Source: an uncultured Erysipelotrichaceae bacterium
GTDB lineage: Bacteria > Bacillota_I > Bacilli_A > Erysipelotrichales > Erysipelotrichaceae
NCBI GenBank assembly: GCA_902793635.1
Contig: CADBEA010000001.1
Span: 62,001 to 126,000 of the forward strand
Length of the DNA stretch: 64,000 bases
Reading direction: 5' to 3'
The translations under genes were made by a program, and so were the position numbers. This document shows, one piece after another, positions 45,107 through 47,501 of the stretch. The notes under the pieces were generated by a model that saw nothing but the letters and a program-made list of their open reading frames with translations, was not told the DNA's origin and made no database searches. Every line of letters starts with the position of its first letter. Position 1 is the first letter of the stretch.

Positions 45107-45505
45107 CTACGGCAGCAGATCACTGAGATGCCGGCTGTAGAAAAAATCATATGTCATCCTGTCGTACTCTTTCCAGAGCGGAAGGGTCCGGCAGTATTCC
45201 GCCCGCGGACAGGGTTCAGCACATTTCATCAGACAGGCAACGGCTGCCAGTGAACCCTCCATCCGTTCGAGAATTTCGCCGATTGTATAATCTTCCGGCT
45301 TCCGGGTCAGTTTGTAGCCGCCGCCTTTGCCGCTGACGCCGGTGAGAAAGCCGGCAGCCACCAGCTCCTTCACGATGATTTCCAGATATTTCTTGGATAT
45401 GGCCTGCCGTTCAGCAATGTCCTTTAACGGCAGATATCTGCCATTTCCGTTTTCCGCAATATCCGCCATGACCCTGAGGGCATATCTTCCTTTTGTTGTA
45501 ATCAT
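45107..45505 (-). CDS. Rrf2-family regulator (CymR/IscR type)
   Basis: The 132-residue protein has an Rrf2 winged helix (MITTKGRYALRVMADIAENG, IAERQAISKKYLEIIVKELV, GVSGKGGGYKLTRKPEDYTI). It has a Cys-rich segment (ACLMKCAEPC, EYC) near 92-107 that could hold an iron-sulfur cluster, as in IscR. Met 45505 has AGAAGGA upstream; the frame is open for another 73 codons, but these lie over the divergent leader peptide and are rejected. It is divergent from the leader peptide-cysK unit. CymR, which senses the cysteine pool in complex with CysK in Bacillales, is the obvious functional model. That role is inference. Confidence 0.87.
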   Translation of the reverse strand: MITTKGRYALRVMADIAENGNGRYLPLKDIAERQAISKKYLEIIVKELVAAGFLTGVSGKGGGYKLTRKPEDYTIGEILERMEGSLAAVACLMKCAEPCPRAEYCRTLPLWKEYDRMTYDFFYSRHLSDLLP

Positions 45506-45560: not shown

Positions 45561-45575
45561 AGGAAATATTGCCTA

Positions 45576-45604
45576 TTGACATAGTAGGTGAATAGTTTTA
45601 TATT
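45576..45604 (+). promoter_or_regulatory. Sigma-A promoter of the leader peptide-cysK unit
   Basis: TTGACA (45576-45581), a 17-base spacer and TATATT (45599-45604). The octamer GGTGAATA recurs in the spacer (45587-45594), so one regulator may bind both divergent promoters. Confidence 0.88.
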
Positions 45605-45630
45605 GTTGACTAGTAAAAGGAGAGCAGAAG

Positions 45631-45738
45631 ATGAAACGCATAACACTGAACAGTACAAATAAACAGATGATGTGTTGTCGAGTACTGTGTTCCCGGGCAT
45701 GTTGTATGGCTGGGGTGTTCGCATGCGCTCCTCAGTAA
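45631..45738 (+). CDS. Cysteine-rich 35-residue leader peptide upstream of cysK
   Basis: The small frame starts with ATG 45631 behind AAAAGGAG and ends at TAA 45736-45738. It encodes MKRITLNSTNKQMMCCRVLC, then SRACCMAGVFACAPQ. Cys occurs at 15, 16, 20, 24, 25 and 32, including two tandem TGT-TGT pairs. It follows a strong promoter, and a terminator at 45772 lies between it and cysK. This is the classic layout of transcription attenuation by a leader peptide: ribosomes stalled at Cys codons when charged tRNA-Cys is scarce would alter RNA folding so that cysK is read. A real secreted Cys-rich peptide is less likely, because there is no signal or leader motif. Confidence 0.7.
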   Translation: MKRITLNSTNKQMMCCRVLCSRACCMAGVFACAPQ

Positions 45739-45771
45739 TGATTCATTGGAAATCAAGCCTGTCAATGTCCC

Positions 45772-45805
45772 GGTATTAATAAAATGATTCCGGGTTTTTC
45801 TTTGG
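45772..45805 (+). terminator. Intrinsic terminator between the Cys leader and cysK
   Basis: CCCGG / CCGGG (extended by A-T pairs) around an AT-rich loop, followed by TTTTTCTTT. It stands between the leader peptide stop and the cysK ATG and would reduce read-through into cysK unless prevented. Confidence 0.72.
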
Positions 45806-45920
45806 ATGAAAACTTACGCTGAAACAGCAGACAGGATACAGGGGAAAGAAAGAGCGGATGCAAAAAAGGATTACTGCTGAATGAACTGCAAAGAACAAAA
45901 GAAAGAGAAAGGTAAATAAC

Positions 45921-46856
45921 ATGACGAAAATTTATAAAGGAACACTGGATCTGATCGGCAACACACCGCTGGTTGAAGTAACAAACATCGAAAAAGAACT
46001 GGATCTTAAGGCAACATTGCTTGTCAAACTGGAATATCTGAATCCGGCCGGAAGCGTCAAGGACAGAATCGCCAAAGCGATGATCGAAGACGCGGAGGAG
46101 AAGGGACTTCTGAAGGAAGGGTCTGTCATTATTGAACCGACATCCGGAAATACCGGTATCGGTCTGGCAGCAATCGCGGCCGCGAAAGGATACCGTATTA
46201 TTCTGACCATGCCGGAAACAATGAGCGTGGAAAGAAGAAATATTCTGAAGGCATATGGTGCCGAAGTGGTTCTGACCGAAGGTGCCAAGGGCATGAAAGG
46301 TGCCATTGCCAAAGCGGAGGAACTTGCGGCAGAAATCGAAAACAGCTTTATTCCCGGACAGTTCATCAATCCGGCTAACCCGGCGATCCATAAAGCGACG
46401 ACCGGCCCGGAGATCTGGAATGATACAGACGGAACAGTAGATATCTTCATTGCCGGTGTCGGCACCGGCGGAACCGTGACAGGTGTGGGAGAATATCTCA
46501 AAGAACAGAAACCGGCTGTGAAAGTGGTCGCTGTCGAGCCGGAAAGTTCTCCTGTCCTTTCCGAAGGAAAAGCCGGTGCGCATAAAATTCAGGGTATCGG
46601 TGCCGGATTTGTTCCGAAGGTGCTGAACACGGGTGTCTATGACGAGATCTACAAAGCATCTAACGAAGACGCTTTCGCAGCCGCGAAGCATCTTGCCCGC
46701 AAGGAAGGCATTTCCGTGGGTATCTCGTCCGGTGCTGCCCTGCATGCGGCAATTCTCTATGCCCAGAAGCCGGAAAATGAAGGAAAGGTGATCGTTGCAC
46801 TGCTGCCGGACAGCGGTGACAGGTATTATTCAACGCCACTGTTCACCGAGCAGTAA
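45921..46856 (+). CDS. cysK: Cysteine synthase A (O-acetylserine sulfhydrylase)
   Basis: The 311-residue PLP enzyme makes cysteine from O-acetylserine and sulfide. The PLP Lys47 is in [11 protein letters not shown]; the substrate loop is [12 protein letters not shown]; the phosphate cradle is [10 protein letters not shown]; and [10 protein letters not shown] lies near the C terminus. Length and motifs are those of CysK/CysM. AGAAAGG lies upstream. The gene lies behind a Cys-codon leader and terminator and is divergent from an Rrf2 regulator. In Bacillales CysK also acts as co-regulator of CymR, so the pair here may do both jobs. Confidence 0.95.
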
Positions 46857-46905: not shown

Positions 46906-46990
46906 GTTAAGAAAAACCCCCGGATAGTCCGGGGAGTCCAAATAAGGTTAACCGATGAGTCTCTGCCAGCGGAGCCTATAATGTAGATGC

Positions 46991-47501
46991 GGTCTGCCAA
47001 CTGCAAATACAAAATAGGAGGACAAATGACAGAGACACATACATTATCGCACACAACGTGGAATTGTAAGTATCACGATGTATTCGCACCGAAGTATCGA
47101 AGAAAGGTGTTCTACGGAGAAAAAAGACTGGAGATAGGAGTAGTATTGAGGACACTGTGCAAGTGGAAGGGGGTGAATATACTGGAAGCAGAAGTATGCC
47201 CTGATCATGTGCACATGCTTGTCGAAATACCGCCGAAGTACAGTGTTTCGCAGTTCATGGGATATCTGAAAGGAAAAAGCAGCCTGATGATATACGAGAA
47301 ATGGGGAAACATGAAGTACAAGTATAGGAACAGAGAGTTCTGGTGCCGTGGATACTATGTAGACACGGTTGGAAAGAATACAAAGAAGATCCAGGAATAC
47401 ATAGCGCATCAGCTGGAAGAAGATAAAGCGGCTGATCAGTTGACGCTGGATCTCGGCGACCCGTTTAACGGGAAAAAGTAGCGGTTTGCGTGTGGCAGAC
47501 C
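46991..47501. repeat. Inverted repeat flanking the tnpA gene
   Basis: GGTCTGCCA (46991-46999) and TGGCAGACC (47493-47501) are perfect inverted copies on either side of tnpA, inside the element. They could pair in the transcript or in single-stranded DNA. Confidence 0.6.
47026..47481 (+). CDS. tnpA: IS200-family Y1 transposase TnpA
   Basis: The 151-residue protein has the HUH motif (HVH at 61-63 in CPDHVHMLVEIP), the conserved FMGYLKGKSS and the catalytic Tyr125 in KIQEYIAHQ. Length and motifs are those of a complete IS200 transposase, which nicks and rejoins single-stranded DNA. Met 47026 has TAGGAGG 5 bases upstream; the frame's earlier ATG at 46987 is rejected. The gene seems intact, so the element may be active. 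Confidence 0.93.
   Translation: MTETHTLSHTTWNCKYHDVFAPKYRRKVFYGEKRLEIGVVLRTLCKWKGVNILEAEVCPDHVHMLVEIPPKYSVSQFMGYLKGKSSLMIYEKWGNMKYKYRNREFWCRGYYVDTVGKNTKKIQEYIAHQLEEDKAADQLTLDLGDPFNGKK

Follow-up and report, generated by a model that had tools for sequence, protein, structure and literature searches.

Cysteine genes of Bacillota are, in the textbook view, controlled by CymR, by a T-box or by an S-box. The cysK gene in the stretch of DNA analysed here (the window; 64,000 nucleotides) is preceded by a short Cys-rich reading frame and a terminator, which raises the question of how this gene is controlled. A first-pass annotation of the sequence had read the order of these elements as that of ribosome-mediated attenuation. 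This reading is supported by a conserved layout and a covarying antiterminator, and we consider it highly probable, from sequence comparison and folding models, that cysK is controlled by a transcription attenuator which acts through the translating ribosome and responds to cysteine.

Elements of the leader region

The promoter, the good ribosome binding site, the 35-codon frame with six Cys codons and the terminator followed by cysK, all described in the first-pass annotation, are present. They are listed here with the neighbouring regulator gene and the pairing segments.

45107..45505, minus strand: divergent gene for an Rrf2-family regulator, 132 aa, beginning MITTKGRYALRVM (Pfam PF02082, 107.9 bits; NCBIfam rrf2_super, 111.6 bits, above cut-off)
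45572..45588, no strand: palindrome CCTATTGACATAGTAGG spanning the -35 box, putative Rrf2 binding site, identical in loci L012 and L013
45576..45604, plus strand: sigma-70-type promoter of the leader, TTGACA (45576-45581), 17 nt, TATATT (45599-45604), 11 of 12 consensus positions
45617..45622, plus strand: Shine–Dalgarno sequence AAGGAG of the leader ORF, assigned by sequence, 8 nt 5' of the ATG at 45631
45631..45738, plus strand: leader peptide ORF MKRITLNSTNKQMMCCRVLCSRACCMAGVFACAPQ, 35 codons, six of them Cys, with homologous or analogous ORFs in relatives
45673..45678, plus strand: first TGT-TGT pair, proposed stall site; TGTTGTC columns invariant in an 8-sequence alignment
45693..45704, plus strand: antiterminator 5' strand CCGGGcAUGUUG, within the leader ORF, forming a duplex with 45763-45773; CCGGGC invariant, with covariation
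45710..45714, plus strand: CUGGG, putative partner of 45692-45696 in a candidate protector hairpin when the ribosome is absent
45763..45773, plus strand: antiterminator 3' strand CAAUGUCCCGG, forming a duplex with 45693-45704 and overlapping the terminator 5' arm
45769..45803, plus strand: intrinsic terminator, CCCGG (45769-45773) / CCGGG (45790-45794) and TTTTTCTTT, with counterparts in relatives' leaders
45921..46856, plus strand: cysK, cysteine synthase A, 311 aa (NCBIfam TIGR01139 equivalog, 450.6 bits, cut-off 351)

The Cys codons of the leader ORF lie at 45673, 45676, 45688, 45700, 45703 and 45724. Both TGT-TGT pairs noted in the first-pass annotation exist; however, relatives do not keep the second one, which reads TAC TGT in L013 and CGA TGT in L082 and forms part of the antiterminator. 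The idea that both pairs serve as stall sites was rejected for its lack of conservation. The first pair (45673-45678) is the likely stall site. When both strands of the window were searched for a Shine–Dalgarno sequence and ATG opening an ORF of 12-60 aa with CC and followed by a terminator, the Cys leader was the sole plausible match in the 64 kb. The other match with CC and a terminator, on the minus strand near 52.6 kb, was rejected as lying inside coding sequence, in a gene-like frame.

The terminator stem, CCCGG-N16-CCGGG (45769-45794), continues after one internal mismatch with four more pairs and has a folding energy of about -9.4 kcal/mol; a simple scanner missed this terminator, probably owing to the mismatch. 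An antiterminator that competes with it, as the first-pass annotation had envisaged, was found by folding: 45693-45704 pairs with 45763-45773, which includes the terminator 5' arm, so that the two structures are mutually exclusive. In the window this antiterminator is modest, consisting of 5 bp, a bulge and 6 bp including two G-U pairs. Its counterpart covaries across 36 divergent loci, as described below.

The effect of ribosome position was modelled by equilibrium folding with an assumed ribosome footprint (leading edge at +15 from the P site). For the window, the predicted terminator probability is 0.25-0.29 with the ribosome at the first Cys pair, compared with 0.95 with the ribosome at the stop codon or with none. 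In the stalled state before the terminator 3' arm has been made, the antiterminator is predicted with a probability of 1.0. In the full ribosome-free fold of the window alone, 45692-45696 pairs with 45710-45714 at P = 0.99; this candidate protector partner lies 3' of the antiterminator strand, whereas the protector in trp lies 5' of it.

The ORF, the terminator, the complementary segment, their conservation and their covariation are given directly by sequence and computation, and from them we infer the following course of translation, stalling and read-through. A transcript starting near 45611 would carry the translated 35-codon leader ORF. With charged Cys-tRNA available, the ribosome would pass the Cys codons to the stop codon, the terminator at 45769-45803 would form, and cysK would not be transcribed. 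When Cys-tRNA is short, the ribosome would stall at the first TGT-TGT pair, leaving 45693-45704, just ahead of it, free to pair with 45763-45773, including the terminator 5' arm. With the terminator blocked by the antiterminator, the polymerase would continue into cysK.

Cys leaders in related genomes

A search for cysK in the same genus covered 70 genomes, 54 of which gave a match, and further upstream regions were added; the compared loci (numbered with the prefix L) come mostly from draft MAGs. The leader pattern matched 30 times in 27 kb of same-genus cysK upstream sequence vs. once in 133 kb of flanking control sequence (both strands). Among triplet runs in these upstream regions, CCC was counted 19 times and any other amino acid at most twice. 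Of the same-genus species having cysK, about half carry a Cys-run leader with a terminator before it, and such leaders were also seen in several Clostridia and in one further genus of the family; the conserved Cys frame that the first-pass annotation had proposed to look for in relatives was thus found. Several same-genus cysK loci are without such a leader, e.g., L038, L043 and L045.

Examples of the leader peptides are MKRTKDMNMCCCMKSIRDKLRGLF (L028), MKHTGNFYMCCCKKTPGPAA (L037) and MNKQMVNQMCCCCNLNNVRMNAVTASGLL (L046), to which a different genus of the family adds MKHYTVMCCCCCCSVLNEPGPIC (L228). A second copy of cysK in the genome (contig C8 of G000, G000:C8; locus L063) has its own, different Cys leader, MISGLYYNACCRRIPSLPGTVQEQDVL, again with a terminator. 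The peptides range from 16 to 39 aa and have little in common across clusters outside the Cys run, and a terminator follows nearly every leader. Overall, 135 Cys codons are TGT and 41 are TGC, and the two are mixed within runs (e.g., TGTTGCTGT and TGCTGTTGT). Because TGT and TGC interchange in this way, the residue Cys, and not a particular codon, appears to be under selection. A genome-wide search with the pattern SD-ATG-(TGY)3 proved too unspecific: six matches were retrieved, and the three that were read closely were gene-internal or had no sulfur gene following.

An alignment of eight sequences, namely the window, L012, L013, L082 and L100 (Clostridiales), L084 and L093 (Mogibacterium) and L103 (Christensenellaceae), has TGTTGTC, CCGGGC and the terminator-arm CCCGG among its invariant columns. 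In most leaders, a segment 3' of the Cys run can pair with the terminator 5' arm, and often also with the bases adjoining this arm on its 5' side. The helices differ from locus to locus with pairing kept: CCCGG/CCGGG; CUCUCGG/CCGAGAG in L052; GGCGG/CCGCC in L022; GGCGA/UCGCC in L027; CAGGAAAC/GUUUCCUG in L041; CCUGGGAU/AUUCCAGG in L034; and ACUCCCGGGCA/UGCCCGGGAGU in L106. A swap test was carried out over 36 divergent loci, one representative per cluster, with kinship handled by this clustering only; the native mean was -17.9 kcal/mol vs. -12.9 kcal/mol (sd 0.55) for permuted pairings, and none of 50,000 permutations was as good. The segment downstream of the Cys run and the terminator 5' arm covary.

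The window taken alone provides moderate evidence for the modelled antiterminator: 7 of 200 shuffles equal it (none of 200 for L082, and none of 200 for L100), and in the swap test its native arm comes 23rd among the 36. The case for the antiterminator of the window is carried by the comparison.

Counted from the first base of the last Cys codon, the complementary segment starts after a median of 14 nt, which is where the leading edge of a ribosome stalled at that codon would be expected. An antiterminator offset that grows with the length of the Cys run was also considered; it appeared as a weak trend only (rho 0.31, p 0.08) and was set aside. Over the whole set, the state folding predicts a median terminator probability of 0.34 with the ribosome stalled vs. 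0.98 with the ribosome at the stop codon, and for L082, L084 and L100 the predicted values are 0.00 and 1.00, respectively. In these models, the stalled ribosome leaves the antiterminator strand free. In L031, L041, L044, L046, L052, L053, L056 and L058, the stalled state is still dominated by the terminator at equilibrium, so that for such loci one has to suppose that the helix made first prevails kinetically.

Several variants of the arrangement were observed. In the metY-cysK loci L015, L018, L106 and L115 (metY being named by sequence resemblance only), the leader stands before metY and cysK is the second gene. In L022, L023, L025 and L027, whose leaders stand upstream of cysK, a -10-like box precedes the leader ATG by about 4-7 nt and there is no Shine–Dalgarno sequence. 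These may be leaderless ORFs in Bacillota, judged from the promoter-like spacing, that are accompanied by a terminator and a complementary segment. Leaders before metY that end in RMC(C) or similar and have no terminator were seen in L019-L021, L026, L033, L110, L143, L155 and L156; in four of these (L019-L021, L155), inspection by eye indicates that the metY ribosome-binding site could pair with bases located at the Cys codons or 3' of them. The RMC(C) form suggests a putative translational control. In L119, L122 and L127 (Oscillospiraceae/Ruminococcaceae MAGs), Cys-run leaders are found with very strong terminators before cysK, and a simple duplex search gave no convincing antiterminator in these three. 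It is conceivable, and we propose it tentatively, that among Bacillota of the gut and rumen, Cys-run leaders are a widespread, fast-evolving control of cysK and metY-cysK, in the position held in other species by a Cys T-box or CymR. The same tentative proposal includes their occurrence in several forms: led by a Shine–Dalgarno sequence and with a terminator; apparently leaderless and with a terminator; and, before metY, terminator-less with RMC(C).

Promoter control and other explanations

The cysK promoter could be controlled by the adjacent Rrf2 (CymR-like) repressor, with the Cys frame and terminator being incidental or a minor relic. In B. subtilis and S. aureus, CymR is the regulator of cysteine metabolism (PMC2940859), and the divergent Rrf2 gene is conserved beside cysK in L012, L013, L093 (73% identical) and L103 (67%), while at other loci an Rrf2 gene adjoins cysK without a Cys leader. 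In the window, a palindrome covers the -35 box. However, the regulator falls far short of the NCBIfam CymR equivalog cut-off (73.5 vs. 195 bits) and does not reach that for IscR either; by these profile scores, the product of 45107-45505 is classed as a general Rrf2 regulator. Moreover, promoter control leaves the Cys runs, the terminators and the covarying pairing unexplained at loci where the palindrome or the neighbour is absent, and it can coexist with attenuation, as at S. aureus ilv, where CodY acts alongside a Leu attenuator (PMC5794164). Rrf2 control as the whole explanation is thus very unlikely, whereas in the attenuation reading the divergent regulator may add a promoter-level control by binding the palindrome over the -35 box.

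Palindromes like CCTATTGACATAGTAGG were also seen near cysK or metY promoters in L014, L020, L021, L041, L091 and L101. Regulators of the adjacent Rrf2 family probably bind at this recurrent palindrome.

The CysK protein of the window is closer to those of the aligned loci than to most same-genus CysK proteins, and these protein comparisons make it likely that the rrf2-leader-cysK cassette was transferred horizontally. An IS200-like (Y1_Tnp) transposase gene lies directly 3' of cysK (46987-47481, plus strand). The transposase and the resemblance of the cassette to the Mogibacterium and Christensenellaceae loci fit a mobile history.

A short Cys-rich ORF with a good Shine–Dalgarno sequence and its own terminator could also encode a functional small protein (e.g., metal- or redox-sensing), with cysK merely being the next gene. 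This is highly improbable, since the peptides diverge outside the Cys run and yet the nucleotides past the run match the terminator arm, a promoter scan found no separate cysK promoter 3' of the terminator, and at all loci examined, which were collected by their cysK, the leader stands before cysK or metY-cysK. The leader might, alternatively, act on translation or via Rho, as has been proposed for the terminator-less Cys leaders of Actinobacteria, and the leaders without a terminator before metY-cysK in L019-L021, L026 and L033 would agree with this. We give such a mode of action hardly any weight for the window, where, as in most loci, a terminator and a covarying antiterminator lie between the leader and cysK.

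A known riboswitch or T-box in charge of the terminator can be practically dismissed: the cysK of C. perfringens is governed by Cys T-boxes (PMC2940859) and the genome has 12 T-boxes above cut-off, but neither the leader nor 15 related loci gave an Rfam match. Rfam searches that covered the window, its leader region and also 35 related loci gave neither a T-box nor a SAM element nor any other known family at cysK. The leader gave nothing at the gathering score and nothing meaningful at E values up to 5; in the covariance-model searches, no T-box (RF00230) was matched in the leader and no SAM (S-box) riboswitch (RF00162) in the window. Besides its 12 T-boxes over the Rfam cut-off, the genome has three below it and one borderline SAM element just under the cut-off (C35), none of which is at the window cysK.

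Relation to known leaders and significance

Cys leaders comparable to that of the proposed attenuator are known from outside Bacillota. The uORFC-8-2 motif before cysS in Rhodobacterales, for which attenuation by Cys-tRNA shortage has been predicted (PMC8632094), likewise has tandem Cys codons in a short ORF, together with RNA stems and an intrinsic terminator. However, its gene is cysS and not cysK, its hosts are Alphaproteobacteria, and it forms a single conserved motif in which a stem contains the Cys codons, whereas the sequences here vary widely and keep only the Cys run, the antiterminator and the terminator. In Actinobacteria, Cys-run leader ORFs without terminators were predicted before cys/cbs operons and Rho was proposed (PMC1262725), and mycobacterial polycysteine ORFs have been reported as cysteine-responsive attenuators (Canestrari et al. 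2020, as cited in PMC13236596). What these have in common with the present leaders is a short ORF that contains Cys-codon runs and lies upstream of sulfur-assimilation genes. The actinobacterial leaders are without a conserved terminator hairpin and the mycobacterial ORFs are leaderless, in contrast to the present leader with its Shine–Dalgarno sequence, intrinsic terminator and covarying antiterminator.

Within Bacillota, the Leu-rich attenuator of S. aureus ilv-leu (PMC5794164) also combines a leader peptide with a terminator and antiterminator, and has a promoter-level layer in CodY as the present locus may have in its candidate Rrf2 regulator, but it senses Leu and not Cys and precedes other genes. 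A His leader before hisS*/hisZ in Bacilli (PMC2965389) is a classical Firmicutes leader peptide that replaces a T-box; it differs in its His codons and in its aminoacyl-tRNA synthetase genes. The Cys T-box of C. perfringens cysK-cysE (PMC2940859) shares the target gene, the signal of Cys-tRNA charging and the premature termination. It differs in that the RNA reads the tRNA directly, without a translated leader, and the Rfam T-box is absent here.

A Cys leader of this kind had been called a new mechanism for the group. Leader-peptide attenuation itself is not new to Bacillota, given the His leaders (PMC2965389) and the Leu leader of S. aureus ilv (PMC5794164). What may be new is the Cys specificity at cysK: the literature searched, with subscription journals mostly outside the search, gave no description of such a leader before this gene in Bacillota. 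The arrangement is common to dozens of related and unrelated gut bacteria and appears to be undescribed in Bacillota. Its assignment to Bacillota is based on the named clostridial loci, and the many T-boxes of the genome agree with it.

A 2010 study noted that several clostridial cysK genes have no T-box and that other mechanisms may exist (PMC2940859). The Cys leader attenuator proposed here would be one non-T-box mechanism of the kind anticipated for clostridia. In this organism, leader-peptide attenuation would replace the T-box at cysK in a genome still rich in T-boxes, and the dozens of divergent leaders make the geometry of stall site and antiterminator directly testable.
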